Positions 2,244-24,327 of a stretch of 64,000 nt of DNA are shown piece by piece. The translations under genes were made by a program, and so were the position numbers. Under the pieces are notes generated by a model. That model made no database searches, had not been told where the DNA came from, and was given only the letters and a program-made list of their open reading frames with translations. The stretch comes from Candidatus Aenigmatarchaeota archaeon. Its GTDB lineage: Archaea; Aenigmatarchaeota; Aenigmatarchaeia; CG10238-14; SCSR01. The stretch lies in contig JACPJU010000001.1 in assembly GCA_016187385.1 (NCBI GenBank), positions 525,144 through 589,143 on the forward strand. Reading direction: 5' to 3'. How positions within the stretch are numbered: position 1 is the stretch's first letter; every line of letters starts with the position of its first letter.

Positions 2244-2691
2244 GATATGCCCATACTGCCAAAGTGAAGAAACAAGGGTCATTGACAAGCGACCAAGCGA
2301 TGACAAGACATTCAGAAGGCGCAGGGAATGCGAGAAATGCAATAAAAGATTCACAACATACGAGAGAATAGAGATCATACCTTTGACTATTGTCAAGAAG
2401 GACGGCCGCAGGGAAGATTTCGACAGGAACAAAGTAAGAATGGGGATAACAAAAGCCTGCGAAAAGAGACCGATAAGCCAAGAAAAGATAGAAAAGGCCG
2501 TAGGCGAAATAGAAAATGAATTGAGGAACATGGACACGACTGAGATAAGGTCCAAGGTAATTGGTGATATGGTGATGAACAAACTAAAGGATTTGGACGA
2601 GGTCGCTTACATCAGGTTTGCTTCTGTGTATAAAAAGTTCAGAGACATAGAGTCTTTTGAAAAGGAATTGAAGGAACTTAAACGAGGATGA
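2242..2691 (+). CDS. nrdR: transcriptional repressor NrdR (Zn ribbon plus ATP-cone)
   Basis: 'MICPYCQSEETRVIDKRPSDD...RRRRECEKCNKRFTTYERIE'; start by family convention. Confidence 0.9.
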   Translation: MICPYCQSEETRVIDKRPSDDKTFRRRRECEKCNKRFTTYERIEIIPLTIVKKDGRREDFDRNKVRMGITKACEKRPISQEKIEKAVGEIENELRNMDTTEIRSKVIGDMVMNKLKDLDEVAYIRFASVYKKFRDIESFEKELKELKRG

Positions 2692-5600
2692 GAATGGACG
2701 GTCTTGATCAACGAGTTCAATTGGTCGGCGAGCAGAAAGGATTGAAGATACCAAGATTGTTCACACAAGAAGGGCAAAATGTTTATGATACTTGCGAATG
2801 GGATAAAAGGACGTCACTGATCAAAAATCCAGATGGTACGATTGTTTTTCAGATGAACAACGTCGAAGTCCCGAAATTCTGGTCTCAGACCGCGTTGGAT
2901 ATTCTCGCGCAGAAATATTTCAGGAAGCGAGGCGTGCCTCAGTTCGATGTTAATGGGGATCCTATTTTGGATGCGAACGGTCAGCAAGTTCTCGGCAGCG
3001 AGGTCTCTTTGAAACAAGTCGTGCACAGACTTGCCGGGTGCTGGGCATGGTGGGGCAAGAAATACAATTATTTTGCAACAGACGAAGACGCCAAAGCGTT
3101 TTACGACGAGATTGCTTTTATGCTGTTGCACCAGTTTGCGTCACCGAATTCCCCTCAATGGTTCAATACTGGACTGCATTTTGCTTATGGAATTTCAGGA
3201 CCGCCGCAGGGGCACTGGCATGTTGATACGGATACAAAAGAATTGAAACAATCACAGGATGCTTATTCTCATCCGCAATGTCATGCGTGCTTTATCCAAT
3301 CTGTAAAGGACGAACTGATCAATGACGGCGGTATTCTGGATTTGGCGGTCAGGGAAGCAAGAATTTTCAAATACGGCTCAGGAACAGGAACCAACTTTTC
3401 AACTCTAAGATCAAAAGGCGAGCCGTTGTCTGGGGGAGGAACTTCCAGTGGAGTAATGTCGTTCTTGAAAATTTATGATACGGTTGCAGGTTCGATAAAA
3501 TCCGGCGGAACAACAAGACGTGCAGCCAAAATGGTTCTTTTGAATGTGGATCATCCCGAGATAGAAGCTTTCATAAGATGGAAAGCTAACGAAGAGAAAA
3601 AGTTTGCGGCGTTGGTAGGCACTGGTCTTGTTGATGGCTATAATGTGGAATCTGCTGGCGAACATGTATTCGGCCAGAATTCCAACAATTCGGTTCGCAT
3701 TACAGACGAATTTATGAAGTCTGTTGCCGAGGACAAGAATTGGAACTTGACATGGAGGACAGATGGAAGAGTTATCAAGACAGTCAAGGCACGACATTTA
3801 TGGGATACGATTGCACAGTCTGCATGGGAGTGCGCCGATCCCGGCCTGCAGTTCGACACAACATACAATGACTGGCACACTTCACCTGCTTCCGGAAGAA
3901 TTAACGCGACCAACCCTTGTAGCGAATTTGCATATTTGGACAATTCCGCATGCAACCTTGCATCATTGAATCTAAGGAAATTCTTGAATGGAACCTTTAA
4001 TGTCGATATGTTTAAACATGCCAGTCGGTTGTGGACTATAGTTTTGGAAATTTCTGTTTTGATGGCGCAGCTTCCGTCCAAGGAAATCGCCGATGTAACT
4101 TATAGAACAAGAAGCCTCGGTTTGGGGTACACGAATCTTGGCTCGGTGCTGATGCATCTTGGAATCCCATATGATTCTGATAAAGCAAGAAACATTGCAG
4201 CAGCTGTAACAGCTGTAATGACTGGCGAGAGTTATGCAACATCTGCAGAGATGGCTAGTGTTCTGGGTCCGTTCGGCGAGTTTGATAAAAATAGAGAACA
4301 CATGTTGCGAGTGATCAGGAACCACAGGAGAGCTGTGTACAATGCGCCGAAGGAAGAATATGAAGAATTGAATACAATGCCTGTCGCTATCGATCATGAG
4401 AAATGTCCTGACTATCTGCTTAAAGCTGCGATAGAAAGCTGGGACAGGGCTCTGTTGTGGGGCGAAAGGTTTGGATACAGGAATGCACAATCAACTTTGA
4501 TTGCACCTACTGGGACTATTAGTTTTGTTATGGACGCGGATACGACAGGCATAGAGCCGGATTTTGCTTTGGTAAAATTCAAAAAGCTCGTCGGCGGGGG
4601 TTATTTCAAGATCATCAACCAGACAGTCGAACCTGCGCTGAGGAATCTCGGTTATGCAGATGATGAAATAAAAAGCGTAATCAAATACCTTCTCGGGAGC
4701 AATACATTTGAAGGTGTGCCTTACATTAACACATTTACGCTGAAGAGAAAAGGATTTGTCGATACTGATCTTGAGAAGATGCAAAAATTATTGCCGGGTT
4801 CATTGGATCTTTCTTTTGTCTTCAATATCAACACCCTCGGTAAAGAATGCGTCGAAAGACTCGGGTTCAAAGAGCATCAATACTCGTCGCCGAATTTCAG
4901 TCTGCTGAAATCACTGGGATTCAGGGACGATGAGATAGAAGCCGCAAATGAGTTCATATGCGGGACGCAGACAATAGAGGGGGCTCCACATTTGAAGACA
5001 GAGCATTATCCTATTTTCGACTGCGCGAACAAATGCGGGAGGAAAGGCGTCAGATATATTGACTATATGGCGCATGTGAAGATGATGTCGGTTGTTCAAC
5101 CATTTTTATCGGGCAGCATAAGCAAGACCATCAACATGCCAAATCATGCAACTGTGGAAGAGATTGAGAATGTCTACATGGAATCATGGAAGCTCGGATT
5201 GAAATCTGTTGCATTGTACCGTGATGGTAGCAAGGTCATCCAGCCGTTGGCTGTGTTCAGGGAAAAGAAGGAAGAACCGAGGCCGACAAGGAGAAGGATG
5301 CCGGCAGAGAGAACTGCCATAACGCACAAGTTCAGGGTCGGCAATCAGGAAGGTTATTTGCATGTTGGATTGTTTGAGGAGGGCGTGCCCGGCGAGCTTT
5401 TCATCAAGATGGCAAAACAGGGAAGCACTCTCGCAGGATTGATGGATTCTTTTGCATTGGCCATATCAATAGGATTACAATATGGCGTGCCGTTGAAGGT
5501 TTGGGTCAGCAAGTACATAAACAACAGGTTCGAGCCGATGGGATGGACTGATAACCCAGACATACCTGTGGCAAAGTCAGTCATGGATTACATATTCAAA

Positions 5601-5870
5601 TGGATGGCGTTCAAGTTCCTGCCGAAGGAGGATTTGAAAGAACTGGGGCTGTTGAACGGGGAGAAGATAATTGTCACAGGCGATACTGCTGAGGATGTAG
5701 ACAGCCAGAACAGGGAAGTTGCTTCATTATCCCAGTTTGTGAAGATGGACGACAGGAAAAGTTACATGGAAGGCGACGAGCCTACGTGCCACGAGTGCGG
5801 GAGCATGATGATAAGAAGCGGTTCTTGTTATGTCTGTACTGGATGCGGGGCGACTAGCGGATGTTCTTAA
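2688..5870 (+). CDS. nrdJ: adenosylcobalamin-dependent (class II) ribonucleotide reductase
   Basis: 1060 aa; RNR motifs 'NATNPCSEFAYLDNSACNLASLNL', TSCPD-like C-terminal region, Cys-rich tail 'GSCYVCTGCGATSGCS'. Confidence 0.92.
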   Translation: MRMDGLDQRVQLVGEQKGLKIPRLFTQEGQNVYDTCEWDKRTSLIKNPDGTIVFQMNNVEVPKFWSQTALDILAQKYFRKRGVPQFDVNGDPILDANGQQVLGSEVSLKQVVHRLAGCWAWWGKKYNYFATDEDAKAFYDEIAFMLLHQFASPNSPQWFNTGLHFAYGISGPPQGHWHVDTDTKELKQSQDAYSHPQCHACFIQSVKDELINDGGILDLAVREARIFKYGSGTGTNFSTLRSKGEPLSGGGTSSGVMSFLKIYDTVAGSIKSGGTTRRAAKMVLLNVDHPEIEAFIRWKANEEKKFAALVGTGLVDGYNVESAGEHVFGQNSNNSVRITDEFMKSVAEDKNWNLTWRTDGRVIKTVKARHLWDTIAQSAWECADPGLQFDTTYNDWHTSPASGRINATNPCSEFAYLDNSACNLASLNLRKFLNGTFNVDMFKHASRLWTIVLEISVLMAQLPSKEIADVTYRTRSLGLGYTNLGSVLMHLGIPYDSDKARNIAAAVTAVMTGESYATSAEMASVLGPFGEFDKNREHMLRVIRNHRRAVYNAPKEEYEELNTMPVAIDHEKCPDYLLKAAIESWDRALLWGERFGYRNAQSTLIAPTGTISFVMDADTTGIEPDFALVKFKKLVGGGYFKIINQTVEPALRNLGYADDEIKSVIKYLLGSNTFEGVPYINTFTLKRKGFVDTDLEKMQKLLPGSLDLSFVFNINTLGKECVERLGFKEHQYSSPNFSLLKSLGFRDDEIEAANEFICGTQTIEGAPHLKTEHYPIFDCANKCGRKGVRYIDYMAHVKMMSVVQPFLSGSISKTINMPNHATVEEIENVYMESWKLGLKSVALYRDGSKVIQPLAVFREKKEEPRPTRRRMPAERTAITHKFRVGNQEGYLHVGLFEEGVPGELFIKMAKQGSTLAGLMDSFALAISIGLQYGVPLKVWVSKYINNRFEPMGWTDNPDIPVAKSVMDYIFKWMAFKFLPKEDLKELGLLNGEKIIVTGDTAEDVDSQNREVASLSQFVKMDDRKSYMEGDEPTCHECGSMMIRSGSCYVCTGCGATSGCS

Positions 5871-5974
5871 CTATTATTCAGGTTTATCTAATAGCATGTT
5901 CCTGCTACAACTGAACCTACCAGACTAAATCTTTATATGTATATCTTTTTAATATTTGTATATACGCTGGTCAG

Positions 5975-6241
5975 ATGTGGTACAGAGATGAGTTCCTGAA
6001 TTATTGGTGGAACGATAAGAAACTGTATATGGCCTTGCATGCATTGGATGAGCTGGAAGAATTTGATAAAACAATAGATTTCATATGCGAAATATTAGAG
6101 AAGGGTGAACATAAGCTGGAGTCAAAGGGGGAACAAAAGATGATTGCGAAACTAAAAGTTGGTAAAATGATTTGGGAGACAGCATATAGGATAACTGGTA
6201 ATACTTGTACAATAATACATTTTGGAGTGAAAAGAGTATGA
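5975..6241 (+). CDS. putative toxin, DUF4258/BrnT-like
   Basis: 88 aa; 'HALDELEEFDKTIDFICEILEKGEHK...VGKMIWETAYRITGNTCTIIHFGVKRV'; adjacent to a YgiT-like antitoxin. Confidence 0.5.
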   Translation: MWYRDEFLNYWWNDKKLYMALHALDELEEFDKTIDFICEILEKGEHKLESKGEQKMIAKLKVGKMIWETAYRITGNTCTIIHFGVKRV

Positions 6242-6585
6242 TGTCAAAACTTAAGCTGTTGCTGAGGACACAAGAGAAGAAAGAATTGTCTACATGCCCT
6301 ATATGCCAATCCGGTTTAGAAGAAACTACGGTTGTTCGTAAGGGAATTAAATTGCATGGGTTCAAGTGTAAGAAATGTGGAGAGATAGTGTTCCCGTCAT
6401 CTGAGGTGTTTAAATATGAAATATTATCAGGAAAGAAAAATGTGAGGGAGGTTAGAAGAGTGGGCAACTCAATTGTTATAGGACTACCAAAAGCTTTAGC
6501 AGAGGAAGTTGGAATTAAATCTGGCGATCTAGCGTATTTTGAAGGTAAGGGTAAAGAGATTAGAGTTGATATATTCAAAAAGTAA
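6238..6585 (+). CDS. YgiT-type zinc finger plus AbrB/SpoVT domain antitoxin
   Basis: 'CPICQSGLEETTVVRKGIKLHGFKCKKCGEIVFPS' then 'VREVRRVGNSIVIGLPKALAEEVGIKSGDLAYFEG'. Confidence 0.7.
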   Translation: MMSKLKLLLRTQEKKELSTCPICQSGLEETTVVRKGIKLHGFKCKKCGEIVFPSSEVFKYEILSGKKNVREVRRVGNSIVIGLPKALAEEVGIKSGDLAYFEGKGKEIRVDIFKK

Positions 6586-6595
6586 GGTAGCTGTT

Positions 6596-6649
6596 AGAAG
6601 CGGTTCCTGTTATGTTTGCACTGGCTGCGGGAGCACTAGCGGGTGTTCT
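6596..6649 (+). pseudogene. remnant second copy of nrdJ 3' end
   Basis: encodes RSGSCYVCTGCGSTSGCS (17/18 aa, 46/54 nt identical to nrdJ 5814-5867); native stop absent. Confidence 0.9.
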
Positions 6650-6655
6650 AAACGT

Positions 6656-7702
6656 TCAAAGAGACTCATTATTAATATGTGGTCTATAGTTTCTTTTTTG
6701 ACGTGTTCTGATAATGACCCCATTTCTCCTATCCCTAAACACAAATGGGTACCCTGAATCGTCTCCTTTTTCTCTATACATTCTTTCAGCTTCTTGTAAA
6801 GACTTGAGGGCATACTTATCTGCTTCCCATTCATCGCGAGTTAGAAAATGTAATATTTCATGTCTTAAAATTATACTCAGACGTTGCCCCTGATCATATG
6901 TTTTTTTTCTCTTGAGGTTTAAATACCCTGGAGATTCTGCTTGTTCCAAATCTATATCAGGAAATGCAGGTAAATCGTTTCGACTATGTAGTTCTCTACC
7001 TGTGGATAGTACATTGGAACCAGTTGCAACAAGAACATAGTACTCCATTTTTAGTTTCCCGTTTGGAAGATGCCTTTCAGCTGAAACGAACTGTCCATTG
7101 AAACTACTTTCTGAAGATTCTTTTATCAAGAGGTCCCTTACATAATCAATAGGTATTTTTTTATATTCATCAGGCGTAAGGACATGATTATCAAAAAGGA
7201 AGAAATTAAGTGTTGTCTCTACAATCTCATCTCCTTTAGAACCATACCTTTTGCTTTTGATTAAATCTTCTTTAGATCTTCTTATACCGGGAAATTCTAA
7301 TGCTCCTTTTCGTAGGTAAAATTCATAATCGCTTAGATTTGTAATAGTTATGCCAAGTTCCTTTAACTCTTGATCAGTCAATATATCTCCTGGTAGCTCT
7401 CTTAAAGGTGTAGGCGTTGGTGTAGATGTTTGGGTTGGTGTACTAGTTGATGTAGGAATTTGAGTATAAGTCTTGGTTGGTGTTGAAATCGCTATTTGGG
7501 TAGGTGTAACATAAGGAGTTGTAACTTTCACAGTATATGGGCTAGGTTGATTATGTATAGATTCGGTTCTACCAGACCTACAACCTAAGGGTAATAATAA
7601 AGATAATAGCAATGTTCCTGTTGCTGCTTTGTATCCAATAGATTTTAAAAAATTTGATTCATAACTAGCTTTTCTGATAAAGTCTCTATCCATATTACTC
7701 AT
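6656..7702 (-). CDS. putative lipoprotein with Thr/Pro-rich linker and HExxH (zincin-like) motif
   Basis: N-terminal hydrophobic segment with 'LLLPLGC'; 'PTQTSTPTPTP'; 'RHEILHFLTRDEWEADKYAL'. Confidence 0.6.
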   Translation of the reverse strand: MSNMDRDFIRKASYESNFLKSIGYKAATGTLLLSLLLPLGCRSGRTESIHNQPSPYTVKVTTPYVTPTQIAISTPTKTYTQIPTSTSTPTQTSTPTPTPLRELPGDILTDQELKELGITITNLSDYEFYLRKGALEFPGIRRSKEDLIKSKRYGSKGDEIVETTLNFFLFDNHVLTPDEYKKIPIDYVRDLLIKESSESSFNGQFVSAERHLPNGKLKMEYYVLVATGSNVLSTGRELHSRNDLPAFPDIDLEQAESPGYLNLKRKKTYDQGQRLSIILRHEILHFLTRDEWEADKYALKSLQEAERMYREKGDDSGYPFVFRDRRNGVIIRTRQKRNYRPHINNESL

Positions 7703-7858
7703 CCCTTCTCACCTAAAACTTTCCTGACAGAATATTCAATAAAATGAGACCTGTTCCTAAATAGATTTCCGTCTAGCTTTCCGTCTATTTTTCTGACAGT
7801 CTTTTCATCCATTGATATGCTTATTTTTTGTTTCATCTTACCACAATTTTCTGATTAG

Positions 7859-8485
7859 TTATTGAATTCCTGTTCTAGAATCTCTATCTTCAATTTCGCT
7901 TCTGTATAAAAGCTCTCTTTCAGGATGCTTGTCAAAATATCCTCTGAATAGCTTTCTACCAAGATTTCTTTCCCATGTCTCGTAAAATGATTCTCCACCA
8001 CGCTTGGCCCAGAATCTTGCCGCACGTCCGCCGACATATCCAAGCGCAAGCATAGTCCCTGCAGCTGCAGCGGTTTCTACTGGCTTGTCCAGGACATTAT
8101 TGGCCAAATTCACTCCCGCATGCCATATACTGTTGTAATCAATTTCCCTAACAACATCATAGACTTGTTTCGCGCCTTCAGCACCCCTTGTTAAAGCTTC
8201 ATATGCTTCTCTTAGTTGCAAGTGTTTAAGATAGTCCAAAGCGTTGCCTGTTTCAGCACCAGCCTTTTCAATTCCAGTATCAATGCGTCTCACCTTGTCG
8301 AGATCTTTTATGATGTGAGGAACATTGTAAATAAAATTAGGCGCAGTTAGAATACCGTCTTTAACCTTTCCAAGATAGCCATTGCCGTCTCCAAAAAGAA
8401 CACCAGCCGCACCCGCTTGCCCGGCTAATCTTATAGCATGTGACCCTACATAACCCAATGCTCTGCGTCCAATTTCGTATGACAT
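7859..8485 (-). CDS. hypothetical protein, 208 aa
   Basis: long ORF on minus strand. Confidence 0.5.
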   Translation of the reverse strand: MSYEIGRRALGYVGSHAIRLAGQAGAAGVLFGDGNGYLGKVKDGILTAPNFIYNVPHIIKDLDKVRRIDTGIEKAGAETGNALDYLKHLQLREAYEALTRGAEGAKQVYDVVREIDYNSIWHAGVNLANNVLDKPVETAAAAGTMLALGYVGGRAARFWAKRGGESFYETWERNLGRKLFRGYFDKHPERELLYRSEIEDRDSRTGIQ

Positions 8486-8626
8486 AAACTATCATTTATT
8501 ACTACCAAGTAATAAGAATTACTACCATTTTAGGTTATTTAAAGATTTGTACATTTTACTATATAATAGTAGTGACATAAACAGTGGGCTTTATAAAGTT
8601 ATGTTATTCATAGTTAATAGATTGAT

Positions 8627-9619
8627 ATGCGTATATACGATTATCTTAATCCAAGAAACATTTTCCGTGGTTTAGCAACATTAGCTCTTTATACAATGCT
8701 TGTTGCATGTAGTGGGGATACTGATAGTAAAAAACCGCCAAGTTATACAGCAACACCTTCAAGTAGAAGCTATGCTACACGAACTATCGCTACTCCTACA
8801 CCTGTACTTTTCCCGGCTTATAGGTCTGATGCTAGACCTGAAGCAGACCACGTGGTTGTAACAGACAGTGGTTCGGTAATTGTGACGGTAAATTTCCTAG
8901 GTTATCCTGTAGATGCGAAAGATAGAGCCAATCATACTCTTAACCCTCCTGCAATTACTCCTGTACCTCTTAAAGAAGTGCCGCCTGTAACTAGGGAGGT
9001 AATTGATTTATATGGACACAGTAGAGAGTTGAATATTCTTAGCCTCTTACGGCAATTACAAGATGTGACTGGAGATGGTGTTAGAGATTTCATTATAGAA
9101 TATGATGAACCAAAGAAAGGACCAGTTTTAGAAATCATTGACGGAGATAATTATAGGACGCTGTTCCGTGGGAGCGATTCTGACGATCGAGATGTACACT
9201 ACAGTTTTAACAGTTTTGATATTGAAAATGGAGCAATTGGGATTGGCAATAAAGACGGTACAGTTATCAGAACTGTTCCTATGGTCTTACGCGAAAACGA
9301 AAAAAATAAATGTCGATATCCTTATCCGTATACTGATTCAGTCAGAACAGTCTATAAATATCAGAATGGAAGCTATGTGCCTGTGGGAGAAGAATGGATG
9401 TTTTGTGTTGGAAATGAACCTTTATCTGTTGAAGAAATTTCTAACCTCTATCCAAATGTCGGAAGTGTTCCGATACGCGTGAAGATGCAATATAAACCCG
9501 AATGGGCTAAAAATATATCAGAAAATTGCACTGTGAAATTTGCGTATGATCCCACTTCTGATAGGTCATTTCCTGCTGGTAGCAAGTTTCAGTTAGAGAA
9601 TGACACATGTTGGAAGTAG
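8627..9619 (+). CDS. putative lipoprotein, Thr/Pro-rich linker
   Basis: 'LATLALYTMLVACSGD' then 'TATPSSRSYATRTIATPTP'. Confidence 0.6.
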   Translation: MRIYDYLNPRNIFRGLATLALYTMLVACSGDTDSKKPPSYTATPSSRSYATRTIATPTPVLFPAYRSDARPEADHVVVTDSGSVIVTVNFLGYPVDAKDRANHTLNPPAITPVPLKEVPPVTREVIDLYGHSRELNILSLLRQLQDVTGDGVRDFIIEYDEPKKGPVLEIIDGDNYRTLFRGSDSDDRDVHYSFNSFDIENGAIGIGNKDGTVIRTVPMVLRENEKNKCRYPYPYTDSVRTVYKYQNGSYVPVGEEWMFCVGNEPLSVEEISNLYPNVGSVPIRVKMQYKPEWAKNISENCTVKFAYDPTSDRSFPAGSKFQLENDTCWK

Positions 9620-12502: not shown

Positions 12503-13147
12503 TTATTCCAGAAGTTTTTCAGAATTTTGTAATCGAAGAATCAAGGAATTCATAAATCGTGTAGCATAAGCACCATCCACAATCCTGTGGTCGAATGAAA
12601 GCGACAACGGCAACACCTTTCTTATTTCAATCTTCCCTTCAACAACAACAGGCTTGTCGTATATCATCCCCAGTCCGAGGATGGCAGCTTCCGGATAGTT
12701 TATTATCGGCGTAGCGAATGTACCTCCGATGCTTCCATAGTTTGTTATAGAAAATGTGCCGCCTTTCATGTCCTGCAAATCCAATTTTCTCTCTCTCGCC
12801 TTGTCGGACAATTCTTTCAATTCCTTGGCGATGTCGAGAATGCTTTTCATGTCAACGCCTTTTATCACAGGAACTACCAATCCTTCACCGTCGACATCAA
12901 CAGCAAAACCGAAGTTGTAATATTTCTTCACAATGATTTCTTCGTTCTCTTCATCAAGAGTGGAATTGACCAAAGGGAATTCTTTCATCGCAGCAAGACA
13001 CGCTTTCATGATGAACGGAAGATAAGTAAGTTTTATTCCCTGCTGTTCTGCCTTGACCTTTTCATTCTCACGTATCTTCACAAGTTCGGTCACATCCGCC
13101 TCGTCCATTGTTGTAACATGCGGTGCGTGCTTTACGGATTCTACCAT
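12503..13147 (-). CDS. dihydrolipoyl acyltransferase (E2), catalytic domain part
   Basis: 'MVESVKHAPHVTTMDEADVTELVKIRE...SFDHRIVDGAYATRFM'. Confidence 0.88.
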   Translation of the reverse strand: MVESVKHAPHVTTMDEADVTELVKIRENEKVKAEQQGIKLTYLPFIMKACLAAMKEFPLVNSTLDEENEEIIVKKYYNFGFAVDVDGEGLVVPVIKGVDMKSILDIAKELKELSDKARERKLDLQDMKGGTFSITNYGSIGGTFATPIINYPEAAILGLGMIYDKPVVVEGKIEIRKVLPLSLSFDHRIVDGAYATRFMNSLILRLQNSEKLLE

Positions 13148-13167
13148 GTGTTTTGCGGTTGCTTTCC

Positions 13168-13680
13168 TTATGTCGCTTTTCTTACATCATCTTCTATTAT
13201 TCTTCCATCAGGACCAGTGCCTGTGATTTTTGTTATGTCTACCCCCAAATCCTTGGCAAGTTTTCGAACAACGGGAGTCGCCAATATAGTTGCCTCTTCC
13301 ACAGATCTGGATGCAATAACAGGTTTCGGTTTTATTTCATCGTCTTCTGGTGCTTCTTCAAGATAACCCACAGCACCAGCAGCCTTGAATTTGGGCTCCT
13401 TCCTTTCAACAGTCTTTTCTTCTACACTTTCTCCTTCATCTCCGATAACGAACAAAGTCTGGCCAACCTTGACAGTCTCTCCTTCCCTGAAGTTGATTTT
13501 CAACACTGTGCCAGAATAAGGCGACGGTATTTCTGCGACAGCCTTGTCAGTCTCCACTTCGCCGACTACCTGGTGCTCCTCTACTTTGTCTCCTTCCTTG
13601 ACATACCATTTGACTATCTCCCCCTCTTCTATACCTTCTCCTATGTCAGGGAATTTGAACTCTTTGGGCATTTTATTCAC
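13168..13680 (-). CDS. dihydrolipoyl acyltransferase (E2), lipoyl plus peripheral subunit-binding domain part
   Basis: 'GEVETDKAVAEIPSPYSGTV'; 'ATPVVRKLAKDLGVDITKITGTGPDGRIIEDDVRKAT*'. Confidence 0.88.
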   Translation of the reverse strand: MNKMPKEFKFPDIGEGIEEGEIVKWYVKEGDKVEEHQVVGEVETDKAVAEIPSPYSGTVLKINFREGETVKVGQTLFVIGDEGESVEEKTVERKEPKFKAAGAVGYLEEAPEDDEIKPKPVIASRSVEEATILATPVVRKLAKDLGVDITKITGTGPDGRIIEDDVRKAT

Positions 13681-13683
13681 ATT

Positions 13684-13935
13684 TTAATAATGGATTCTAC
13701 CTCTTGCATCTAATTTGACAACTTCAATAACCCTTTTATCAAAATAGACATCGATAATGATTCTGAAATCACCTGTCCTTACCCTATAAGTTATTTCTCC
13801 TATTTTCTTTATATCCAGACCTTTAGGGAAATCAACCAATTCATTTAATTTCTTAATTAATTTATTTTGAAGATCAGACGGATATTTGGTTATTTTCTTC
13901 CTTGTTCTCTCAGGGATTACAACTGAAAAAGTCAT
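13684..13935 (-). CDS. RelE/ParE-like toxin
   Basis: 'MTFSVVIPERTRKKITKYPSDLQNKLIKKLNEL...YRVRTGDFRIIIDVYFDKRVIEVVKLDARGRIHY'. Confidence 0.75.
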   Translation of the reverse strand: MTFSVVIPERTRKKITKYPSDLQNKLIKKLNELVDFPKGLDIKKIGEITYRVRTGDFRIIIDVYFDKRVIEVVKLDARGRIHY

Positions 13936-14141
13936 TTGCTTCGCAACTCTTTTTTTAGCTGTTCCAGAGTTACATACTTCCCTTCCTTTATTTCTTCCCG
14001 TGATTTCTTTATCTCTTCCCAGTCTTTCGGTGTTAATTGGTCTTCGACAAGCATGGACTCTACCCTCAGCAAGTGACGTTTAACATCCTTTATTTCATTC
14101 AGAAATTGTTTCATAATCCCGAATTCTTTCGGTTGTTTCAT
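13932..14141 (-). CDS. cognate antitoxin of RelE-like toxin
   Basis: 4-nt overlap with the toxin; C-term 'EGKYVTLEQLKKELRSK'. Confidence 0.6.
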   Translation of the reverse strand: MKQPKEFGIMKQFLNEIKDVKRHLLRVESMLVEDQLTPKDWEEIKKSREEIKEGKYVTLEQLKKELRSK

Positions 14142-18659: not shown

Positions 18660-19571
18660 TTAAACTTCAGTTGGCTGCGCCATTTTCTTGAAATCGTCAT
18701 CAGGAACCTGTATAAACAGACAATACCCAAGATTTTTTTTCAACGGACCTCTCAATTCCTCACCAGGTATGGCTTCAACCTCCTGTTCCGTGAATGTAGG
18801 CTCGTGTTCATTAATCCATAATGGTTTGCCATATCTTTGTTTGAACAACTCGATAGACTCCTGTATTATAACGTCATCAACAATCTTTCTTTCATACTTG
18901 TTTCCAGTAACTTCACGCAATATTGCATTACCAACAAGTTCTCTTAAATATCTATTATCCAGTTCAGCTTTCAAGTGATCAGAAACTGAAGGTAGATTTT
19001 TTATTGCAGAATATTCTGTATATACTTGACTACCCACCTTACGTTGTTGTAACATGACTCGATCGGCTATTTTGTCGACATCATAAGGCGTAAGTGTAAT
19101 AAGACCATGCAACAATGCACTTTTAATACCCCACCACATCGCATGACCCGCTATTGGTCTACCATCGACTTTTATTATTGATGCTTTATTGTCTACATTA
19201 ACATCATCCAATCCAATACCGTTAAGCGCATTTGCGACATGGTCAGCATAAAAAGTCCGCATATCCTCATACGTTTTAAAACTACCATCGCGGGGTACTA
19301 CGAATGAATAAGAAATTACGTTTGGACCAGTCTGTACATGTGATCCCCCAGTTATACGTCTGGTTAGCCTGACAGTGGAATCTAAATATTTTATAACGTC
19401 AGTGTCTTGTGCATACCCAAGTACGATGGAATCCTGTGGGAAACTGTAAAATCTGATTGCGGCAACATCATTGAGTTTTTGATCAGCAATCCTTCTAATA
19501 AGAAACTCTTCAAGTGCCATATTTATATCATGGGAAAATACTTCGTTGCCCCAATATTCATAATTAAACAA
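18660..19571 (-). CDS. lipoate-protein ligase A-like protein
   Basis: BPL/LPL catalytic fold 'NMALEEFLIRR...SIVLGYAQD...VRLTRRITGGSHVQTGPNVISYSFV'. Confidence 0.8.
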   Translation of the reverse strand: MFNYEYWGNEVFSHDINMALEEFLIRRIADQKLNDVAAIRFYSFPQDSIVLGYAQDTDVIKYLDSTVRLTRRITGGSHVQTGPNVISYSFVVPRDGSFKTYEDMRTFYADHVANALNGIGLDDVNVDNKASIIKVDGRPIAGHAMWWGIKSALLHGLITLTPYDVDKIADRVMLQQRKVGSQVYTEYSAIKNLPSVSDHLKAELDNRYLRELVGNAILREVTGNKYERKIVDDVIIQESIELFKQRYGKPLWINEHEPTFTEQEVEAIPGEELRGPLKKNLGYCLFIQVPDDDFKKMAQPTEV

Positions 19572-19612
19572 TTCAACACCAGTTTTTATCTGTAGCTATT
19601 AAGATTTAAGAT

Positions 19613-19668
19613 TTACTTTCCTAACGCCCACTTAAGCCTCGTAATCAACAGCCCCGAAAATCCACCAC
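19613..19668 (-). pseudogene. remnant second copy of the thioredoxin-like gene 3' end
   Basis: minus strand IFGAVDYEA..KWALGK* with a small internal deletion versus intact ICGAVDYETLKKWALGK*. Confidence 0.88.
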
Positions 19669-19672
19669 TTGT

Positions 19673-19966
19673 ATGAACAAAAGCTCAATCATAGATTGTA
19701 ATAAATATTTATATCCCACAAAGGAACTATTTAATATGGCAAGGCTAAAATCTGAATCTTACTTAAAATCTAGTTTAGAGGATATGAAGCAACGAATAAA
19801 CTTCCTAGAAAACGAGATCAAAATTGTCAAAACATGGTTATTGGACGATACAATACCTACGCCAAGCGAAAGAATTCTAATTAATAGAGCTTTAAATGAC
19901 ATAAAAACCGGGAAATACAAGAAGCTAATCTCGCATGAAGAACTCCGTAAAAAGTTAGCTGTTTAA
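19673..19966 (+). CDS. antitoxin of RelE-like pair (start may be MARLKSES)
   Basis: immediately upstream of the RelE-like ORF; C-term 'TGKYKKLISHEELRKKLAV'. Confidence 0.6.
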   Translation: MNKSSIIDCNKYLYPTKELFNMARLKSESYLKSSLEDMKQRINFLENEIKIVKTWLLDDTIPTPSERILINRALNDIKTGKYKKLISHEELRKKLAV

Positions 19967-19967
19967 A

Positions 19968-20222
19968 ATGTTTTCTATAAGATACGAGAAATCAGCTGAA
20001 AAATTTCTTGAAAAACTGCGAGACAGGAAATTACAAAAAAGAATTCTTGATAAAATAGAAAAATTAAAAGAAGATCCTTATCCCAAGGAAGCTAAAACCA
20101 TCGAGGTGTACGGTAAGGCGTTTAGGGTCAGAATTGGCGATTACAGAATTTTGTATATAATCGACCATTCTATAAAACTAATAGTTGTAGTTGAGATTGA
20201 CAAAAGAGAAAGAATTTACTAA
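19968..20222 (+). CDS. RelE/ParE-like toxin
   Basis: 'MFSIRYEKSAEKFLEKLRDRKLQKRILDKIEKLKEDPYPKEAKTIE...FRVRIGDYRILYIID'. Confidence 0.85.
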   Translation: MFSIRYEKSAEKFLEKLRDRKLQKRILDKIEKLKEDPYPKEAKTIEVYGKAFRVRIGDYRILYIIDHSIKLIVVVEIDKRERIY

Positions 20223-20597
20223 TTATTTACCCAATGCCCACTTCTTCAGAGTCTCGTAATCAACAGCCCCGCAAATCTTCTTGCCTGTTTTCATGTTAAC
20301 GAAAAAAGGAACGCCACCGCAATATCCTTTGTCAAGACCTTCCATGAATCTGGCGTTTGTGGCATTGTGCCAGACTTCTATTCTCTTGACCTTCACATTC
20401 AATTCCTTTTCCATTTTTTCAACCAAAGGTCTCATCTCGTGGCAATGGATACACTCAATTCCGTAAAATTCCAGCAATTCGTCAGCCATACTATCAATAT
20501 TCGATTGACTCTTATTAAAATTTATGGTTGTGATATTCAACCAACTGCTTGATCGACTTGACGGCATTCTCAGGATAGGTATATGTCGGAATCCCAT
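20223..20597 (-). CDS. thioredoxin-like protein (start probably MADELLEFYG)
   Basis: 'LLEFYGIECIHCHEMRPLVEKMEKEL...GVPFFVNMKTGKKICGAVDYETLKKWALGK'. Confidence 0.75.
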   Translation of the reverse strand: MGFRHIPILRMPSSRSSSWLNITTINFNKSQSNIDSMADELLEFYGIECIHCHEMRPLVEKMEKELNVKVKRIEVWHNATNARFMEGLDKGYCGGVPFFVNMKTGKKICGAVDYETLKKWALGK

Positions 20598-23056: not shown

Positions 23057-23680
23057 ATGAAAGTTCTTTTAGGCAAAGATGCAGAGAAATTCCTGAAAGG
23101 TTTACCACTCGCTAAAAATTTCCTTATCAAAAAAGAGAGTGAATTGTCTAAAATCAAGAAATTCCCTGCGGTCATGAAGATAATCTCCCCGCAAGCCATC
23201 CACAAGACAGATATAGGCGGCATAAAGATAGTAAACAATTCTCAGGAGGCAAAAGAAGCTTTCTACAATTTCATAAAATTGTCCAAATCCAAAAAATTAA
23301 AATTAGATGGTATTCTTGTTCAAGAATACGTCAAAGGAAGAGAATTTATTACCGGCATTAAGAGAGATCCTACATTCGGCCATGTGATAATGTTCGGCGC
23401 AGGCGGTATTTTCGTGGAATCCTTGAGAGACGTGACATTCAGAATGTGTCCCATAGACGACAAAGATGCAGAGTCCATGATGGAAGATTTAAAAAATCAA
23501 TGGCTGATAACCGGGACAAGAGGACAGAAACCAATCAACACTAAACTATTGAAACAGATTCTTGTAAAGGTTTCCAAACTACCGCAAAGACACAAGGGAA
23601 TAGAAGAGCTTGATGTGAATCCTTTGACGGCGAATGAGAAGGAAGCTAAAGTGGTTGATGTGAGAATCGTGATTAAATGA
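23057..23680 (+). CDS. acetyl-CoA synthetase (ADP-forming) beta-type subunit (ATP-grasp)
   Basis: 'FPAVMKIISPQAIHKTDIGGIKI...VQEYVKGREFITGIKRDPTFGHVIMFGAGGIFVE'. Confidence 0.9.
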   Translation: MKVLLGKDAEKFLKGLPLAKNFLIKKESELSKIKKFPAVMKIISPQAIHKTDIGGIKIVNNSQEAKEAFYNFIKLSKSKKLKLDGILVQEYVKGREFITGIKRDPTFGHVIMFGAGGIFVESLRDVTFRMCPIDDKDAESMMEDLKNQWLITGTRGQKPINTKLLKQILVKVSKLPQRHKGIEELDVNPLTANEKEAKVVDVRIVIK

Positions 23681-23940
23681 TTATTGAAAATGTCATTATC
23701 GAAGACAAAGTTAAGGAAAAAATATTAGAAAAACATAATGTCACATCCTTTGAAATTGAAAATGTCTTACTCGGAAACCCATTAGTATTGAAGACAAAAG
23801 AGAGCAGACATTTAGCAGTAGGTTTTTATCATCGGTATCTAACAATTGTTTTTGAATATGGTAAGAAGACAGCAAACATTATAACGGCTTATCCATCGTC
23901 TGAATGGCAGATAAAATTATTTAAAGAAAAGAGGAGATAA
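23677..23940 (+). CDS. BrnT/DUF4258-like putative toxin
   Basis: 'DKVKEKILEKHNVTSFEIENVLLGNPLVLKTK...YLTIVFEYGKKTANIITAYPSS'; ATGA overlap with the preceding gene. Confidence 0.55.
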   Translation: MIIENVIIEDKVKEKILEKHNVTSFEIENVLLGNPLVLKTKESRHLAVGFYHRYLTIVFEYGKKTANIITAYPSSEWQIKLFKEKRR

Positions 23941-23947
23941 GATTGTT

Positions 23948-24274
23948 ATGAAGCTGGAAGAAGTTGAAATGAAATTGACCGAAAGTGCATTTAGAGTAGA
24001 TAGAGCTGTTTGTCCGCATTGTAATTTAAAGATGCACAAGACAATAGAGAATAAGAGCTTGTTTGAAGGAGCATTAACATTCCACATTATAAAACTAAAA
24101 TGTGAGAAGTGTAGCAGAGAGTATATGGACTTGGAACAAGCTCAAGTATATGATTTGTTTCTAGCTGTGAGAAAGTTAAAAGAAAAGCCCATATATGATG
24201 TTGCTGAGAAGATTTCCCAACAAATAATATTAAACAATAGAAGATCCAGACATCAATCCTTTGGTCGTGAATGA
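23948..24274 (+). CDS. YgiT-like zinc-finger antitoxin
   Basis: 'VCPHCNLKMHKTIENKSLFEGALTFHIIKLKCEKCSREYMDLEQ'; its C-term reads out of frame into the remnant. Confidence 0.6.
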   Translation: MKLEEVEMKLTESAFRVDRAVCPHCNLKMHKTIENKSLFEGALTFHIIKLKCEKCSREYMDLEQAQVYDLFLAVRKLKEKPIYDVAEKISQQIILNNRRSRHQSFGRE

Positions 24275-24317
24275 AAGGGAAGCGAAAATAGTTGATGCGA
24301 GAATTGTTGTGAAATGA
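24237..24317 (+). pseudogene. remnant second copy of acetyl-CoA synthetase beta 3' end
   Basis: IEDPDINPLVVNEREAKIVDARIVVK* versus IEELDVNPLTANEKEAKVVDVRIVIK* (17/26 aa, same stop). Confidence 0.95.
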
Positions 24318-24327
24318 TGTCAATTCA

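Follow-up and report, generated by a model that had tools for sequence, protein, structure and literature searches.

In an Aenigmatarchaeota genome and its congeners, small gene modules, mostly toxin-antitoxin (TA) pairs, lie between the functional end of a host gene (F) and a diverged second copy of the same end beyond the cargo (R). The best account of this anatomy, to which we assign a probability of roughly 55%, is gene-end displacement by one-sided homologous (homology-facilitated illegitimate) recombination. The window, that is, the whole 64-kb stretch of DNA analysed, lies in the source genome (G000; G002 and G003 are congeners, and further relatives are numbered likewise) and contains three F-cargo-R cases, at genes for a thioredoxin (trx), NrdJ and acetyl-CoA synthetase beta (ACS-beta). 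The trx locus, whose host gene has orthologs in 5/5 genus members, comprises the following features.

18660 to 19571, minus strand: lipoate-protein ligase gene lplA (PF21948), native downstream neighbour of trx as judged from the G001 empty site
19604 to 19667, minus strand: R of trx, displaced and frameshifted by a 5-nt deletion, between the TA pair and lplA (sequence comparison)
19687 to 19699, no strand assigned: palindrome CAATCATAGATTG upstream of the antitoxin, seen in the sequence
19736 to 19966, plus strand: putative antitoxin of 76 aa with no Pfam match, assigned by size and position upstream of the toxin
19968 to 20222, plus strand: ParE/RelE-superfamily toxin (PF05016, ParE_toxin), convergent with and abutting trx
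20223 to 20281, minus strand: F of trx, the functional 3' end that has a second copy (repeat comparison)
20223 to 20489, minus strand: functional copy of the thioredoxin/glutaredoxin-like host gene (PF00085, Thioredoxin, match barely above cut-off)

The toxin matched PF05016 above the cut-off (E 6e-10, 40 bits against a cut-off of 23), and the 76-aa antitoxin ORF directly upstream stops 1 nt ahead of the toxin ATG. With this model match, a small upstream antitoxin and a palindrome in the promoter region, the pair, which spans 19736-20222 and is convergent to its host, is predicted by homology to be an ordinary type II TA of the RelE/ParE superfamily in an unusual genomic setting; the palindrome is a possible autoregulation operator. 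The core of the trx repeat is identical at 24/25 positions (19638-19662 against 20253-20277), with homology reaching slightly further, to about 19604-19667. Among the short-range direct repeats of the window it ranks second in strength, after that of NrdJ, and its gapped score of 30 compares with at most 20 for reversed-sequence controls covering about 2,900 genes. As a previous sequence-only reading had described, the toxin stop (20220-20222, plus strand) exactly abuts the trx stop, which starts at 20223 (TTA on the plus strand), and to the left of the antitoxin the minus strand encodes ...(K-W-W)-I-F-G-A-V-D-Y-E-A, then the frameshifting deletion and, in the shifted frame, KWALGK followed by a stop, all four codon differences between the two copies of KWALGK being synonymous. 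R retains GKW-like coding in place of the GKK of the host. That reading had termed the trx 3' end duplicated beyond the TA: the second copy does exist and belongs to an architecture that recurs, but it is better called a displaced diverged copy, since its differences are those of an ortholog and not of a decayed duplicate. It had also held that orientation is not fixed in this architecture, and the NrdJ and ACS-beta modules of the window are indeed co-directional with their hosts, whereas those at trx and at a DsbA-like gene of G012 are convergent.

The other two hosts, together with a TA pair adjoining the pyruvate dehydrogenase (PDH) E2 gene, are laid out as follows.

2688 to 5870, plus strand: NrdJ, class II ribonucleotide reductase, second host (PF02867/PF08471)
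5814 to 5871, plus strand: F of NrdJ, about the last 57 nt of the gene, direct repeat
5975 to 6241, plus strand: putative toxin gene of the NrdJ module, no Pfam match
6238 to 6585, plus strand: putative antitoxin of the NrdJ module, with a zinc-ribbon plus a MazE/AbrB domain (PF04014, E 2.9e-4, below cut-off)
6596 to 6653, plus strand: R of NrdJ (VRSGSCYVCTGCGSTSGCS), direct repeat beyond the putative TA pair
13684 to 14141, minus strand: ParE-like TA adjoining PDH E2 on its upstream side; G000 lacks a remnant here (an E2 5'-end remnant is present at the ortholog in G003)
23057 to 23680, plus strand: ACS-beta (ATP-grasp_5, PF13549), third host
23599 to 23681, plus strand: F of ACS-beta, repeat from the genome-wide scan
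23677 to 23940, plus strand: BrnT/DUF4258-like toxin, overlapping the host stop by ATGA (PF04365, E 1.6e-4, below cut-off)
23948 to 24274, plus strand: zinc-ribbon putative antitoxin of the ACS-beta module, whose ORF enters R and has its stop codon there (sequence)
24236 to 24318, plus strand: R of ACS-beta, with frame and stop kept (repeat comparison)

Three larger genes that have no relatives in congeners, at 6656-9619, separate the NrdJ remnant from the CCC1-like gene, and the NrdJ-CCC1 intergenic site has therefore taken further inserts. The E2 gene itself (12503-13680, minus strand) appears in G000 as two ORFs, a lipoyl part of 170 aa and a catalytic part of 214 aa; in G003 and G004 it is a single gene of about 410-418 aa. 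A linker stretch seems to be missing or frameshifted in G000.

Contigs of G000, G002 and G003, and part of those of G004, were rebuilt and scanned for gene ends recurring near their own gene. Within-gene repeats, long repeats and tandem-gene pairs were filtered out before counting, which removed tandem paralogy and intragenic repeats (e.g., pilin-like and ATPase tandem genes) and left 36 candidates. Chance repeats were rejected by reversed-sequence nulls: the controls of the gene-end scan never scored above 20, and tiling of G000, G002 and G003 returned 245 tiles with a score of at least 22, against 0 in a quarter-sized reversed control. Across these three genus-level genomes, at least 15 small modules, most of them TA, proved to lie between F and a diverged R of 33-83 nt, with no long non-paralogous R among the candidates. 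Of the ParE, HicA or PIN toxins, 8/36 lay between such repeats as compared with 37/1405 of the other small ORFs (OR 10.6, P = 7.5e-6), an estimate that is conservative because many of the 37 "other" ORFs are partner antitoxins or belong to other toxin families.

The hosts are diverse, and several of the cargo families named here are assigned from matches under Pfam cut-offs. Remnants were found in G000 for a GatE-like gene, NrdJ, trx, ACS-beta, GatB, a 99-aa gene (HicBA) and TopIB (5' end, VapBC); in G002 for a 275-aa gene (putative toxin/DUF2283), a 133-aa gene (h133; AbrB/ParE), ScpA (RHH/ParE), a 156-aa regulator (h156; ParE with a convergent antitoxin), PDH E1-beta (a 218-aa gene) and an 88-aa gene (h88; 5' end, nucleotidyltransferase plus putative HEPN); and in G003 for a 121-aa gene and PDH E2 (5' end, ParE). 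Thus, gene starts are affected as well (TopIB, E2 and h88), and non-TA cargos exist, namely a C39 peptidase pair at GatE and a SAM hydroxide adenosyltransferase at GatB. On the F side, genes join as natural neighbours would, with an ATGA overlap or with stops that abut. On the R side, the joins cut cargo ORFs: both the antitoxin at ACS-beta and the adenosyltransferase at GatB terminate within R. Most remnants retain frame and stop, and some flanking repeats are non-coding and hence outside the coding-constraint test described below. The h133-TA-R arrangement was found independently in G002 and G003, and serial displacement is apparent at h133 in G002, where F is followed by AbrB/ParE, a first R, Fic and a second R. 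The same anatomy was evident at ParE loci of other genera and families: at ScpA in G041 with a different TA, in G014 at a 383-aa gene whose TA is homologous to that of ScpA in G002, and at the G012 DsbA-like gene, whose TA is convergent as at trx. Among HicA loci checked for flanking repeats a single one was positive, and none of the 8 TA loci of E. coli K-12 taken as a control (0/8) is flanked by gene-end repeats.

Other repeat-rich regions turned up alongside these loci. DUF5678 and aspartyl-protease-like genes lie between diverged direct repeats at G003:C4:78092-78707 and G002:C2:247916-248510, and may represent another addiction-like pair or a mobile cassette. At G002:C2:72547-74215, three copies of a short repeat (64 nt, 95% identical) separate two small modules, the second of which is VapBC, and G003:C5:44471-47740 is a serially rearranged region in which nested repeats surround genes of RelE-like and PemK/MazF-like type.

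Relatives also provide empty sites. A TA-free trx locus, which the sequence-only reading had proposed to look for, occurs in G001, where lplA, the gene beyond R in G000, directly follows trx; a remnant without a TA between the copies, which would speak against that reading, was also sought, and the relatives examined show one trx 3' end and no remnant. Similarly, the CCC1-like gene is directly next to NrdJ in G002, G003 and G004, ScpB directly follows ScpA in G003, and a DUF378 gene directly follows the G003 ortholog of h156, whose G000 counterpart differs in being directly followed by a DUF433/PIN-like pair. The native neighbour beyond the displaced copy was thereby confirmed at trx (lplA), h156, ScpA and NrdJ. 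The 3' side of trx is a variable insertion site, with the TA in G000, LipB-LipA in both G002 and G003, three genes in G004 and nothing in G001; its occupants also include an AAA-type ATPase, and LipB-LipA has an abutting convergent stop. In G016 another ParE TA lies downstream of trx, yet there is no trx remnant.

We compared the way in which F and R differ with the divergence of orthologs. Target duplication followed by decay is expected to spread changes over codon positions, whereas 14 F-R pairs showed 24/27/81 differences at codon positions 1/2/3 and, pooled, 60 synonymous codons against 20±4 simulated. For the 11 pairs with orthologs, the counts (20/24/62) matched those between species in the same segments (56/49/196; P = 0.31), and an identical duplicate with neutral decay was rejected for coding repeats (P 0.001-0.01). 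At NrdJ, F-R identity (84%) equals that of F (82-84%) and R (81-84%) to the ortholog, and at GatB it is 74% against 74-75% for orthologs. Since the codon-position pattern of F and R is that found between orthologs of different species, the two are best read as alleles of different lineages; they probably diverged separately before being joined, F being the putative foreign copy. A hybrid trx derived from G003 was only suggested by the data, as the G000-G003 identity of 85% ranks 23 of 315 for anomalous closeness. Sliding identity revealed no clear step marking a recombination breakpoint in trx, E2 or h133, and no donor for trx was found among 59 relatives, all of which are at species distance or more.

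Gene-end displacement draws directly on the F-cargo-R structure, the empty sites, the recurrence, the TA enrichment and the ortholog-like divergence; from these we infer the one-sided recombination, the identity of the imported copy, the vehicle of the DNA and the part played by addiction. In donor DNA of a related lineage, the end of a gene X would already be followed by a TA or other small cargo. Homology at X would recombine this DNA with the chromosome, and its far side would join illegitimately a few dozen bases inside the native end of X. The imported end (F) would keep X working and bring the cargo along, while the native end (R) would be displaced outward beyond the cargo and then decay. 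TA addiction would make loss of the insert costly, which would explain the prevalence of TAs among retained cargo. The E2 locus fits this displacement model: the TA-E2 junction is common to G000 and G003, with TAs about 80% identical, and the remnant is present in G003 only. There, R differs from F by 1 mismatch in 48, whereas F of G003 and F of G000 are 83% identical, and the remnant is therefore younger than the TA-E2 linkage; the G000 junction without R may represent the arrangement expected of a donor. ComEC, a competence gene sought as a DNA-uptake route, was not found in 20 relatives.

The narrow range of R lengths, 33-83 nt, is not predicted by a random illegitimate join, and homologous TAs occur at unrelated loci: RHH/ParE pairs at ScpA in G002, in an intergenic site in G003 and at the 383-aa gene in G014, and a ParE pair at h156 in G002 and beside a tRNA-Lys gene in G000. 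The latter module, ParE with a convergent antitoxin, adjoins the tRNA gene at G000:C2:761824-762114; this tRNA-Lys gene appears to contain an intron. Length range and homologous TAs therefore keep a dedicated insertion mechanism in play. We tentatively entertain an integrase-free TA mobility route in which gene ends of 33-83 nt would be recurrent landing sites, with F and R as homology arms exchangeable between species, the host left whole and the displaced end outside. The same two observations suit a TA that inserts near a gene end with a long target duplication of 30-85 bp, as proposed for restriction-modification systems (PMC3874152, PMC3031569), the gene-sparing inserts surviving and differences accruing later. 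Minimal module boundaries around two genes, repeats in non-coding sequence as well, and a variable, long duplication with cargo genes only and no transposase also agree with it. Nevertheless, we consider it rather unlikely, as coding repeats differ like functional orthologs and not like a decaying copy, most keep frame and stop, and the E2 remnant is far younger than the linkage.

A trans-acting integrase inserting circles whose attachment site is a replacement gene end, like prophages and islands at tRNA and some protein genes, would produce the same end anatomy of intact gene, cargo and 3' fragment, and one TA does adjoin tRNA-Lys. This is improbable given that the 0.3-1 kb cargos contain no integrase, that many unrelated genes without an apparent shared core are targeted, that 5' ends are struck too, and that a tRNA fragment beyond the tRNA-adjacent TA was looked for and none was found. 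Slightly less probable still is that a duplication of X together with its neighbour, or the union of two alleles, was followed by deletion of most of the second X: a foreign second X would also account for ortholog-like divergence, but every remnant is a short gene terminus directly at the cargo, and intermediates with longer remnants are lacking. All genomes examined are probably MAGs (congeners are labelled as such), so that an assembly chimera might have joined two populations at a conserved gene end. We regard this as highly improbable, because F and R have no more than about 19-24 identical bases in common in trx and mostly fewer elsewhere, gene order runs on across R, h133-TA-R recurs independently in two genomes, and TA enrichment is strong.

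Gene-end displacement has a counterpart in the Rhs/T6SS effector-immunity arrays, where a homology-facilitated illegitimate recombination (HFIR) model (PMC5361080) has been proposed for displacement, including the C-terminal displacement of rhs genes (Jackson 2009, PMC2935791): one-sided homology inserts a new gene end plus cargo, the old 3' end is displaced outward, and serial arrays result. There, the displaced ends are variable toxin domains themselves. In our set, by contrast, housekeeping genes (NrdJ, thioredoxin, GatB, ScpA, ACS) act as hosts, and the cargo, an independent TA module, can also run opposite to its host or adjoin a gene start. Restriction-modification systems likewise combine an addiction-type module with a long, variable flanking duplication, of the order of 100 bp, and no transposase (Nobusato 2000; Furuta 2010; reviewed in PMC3874152; also PMC3031569); the archaeal copies described here, with TA cargo, are shorter (33-83 nt), diverged under coding constraint and centred on gene termini. 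A literature search, of incomplete coverage, returned no paper joining TA modules with HFIR, so novelty is not proven.

Integrative elements, among them e14 at icd, have their attachment sites in gene 3' ends. Like the modules described here, they bring a replacement gene end and leave the displaced one beyond, but the latter have sub-kilobase cargos, no integrase and no common core. An integron gene cassette, with its attC site and integrase, would leave no second copy of a gene end.

It has long been asked how TA modules of chromosomes move without transposases. Many modules, of several TA families and in several archaeal genera, carry a readable scar, in which the divergence of the second gene end records the meeting of two lineages. 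Through this scar, insertion events, target preference, donor divergence and serial displacement can be counted in any genome. Together, these data tie TA spread to Rhs/T6SS displacement and to restriction-modification insertion, show how modules enter genomes without breaking genes, and offer a simple rule for their persistence, whereby landing would restore the host gene and the cargo would punish loss.
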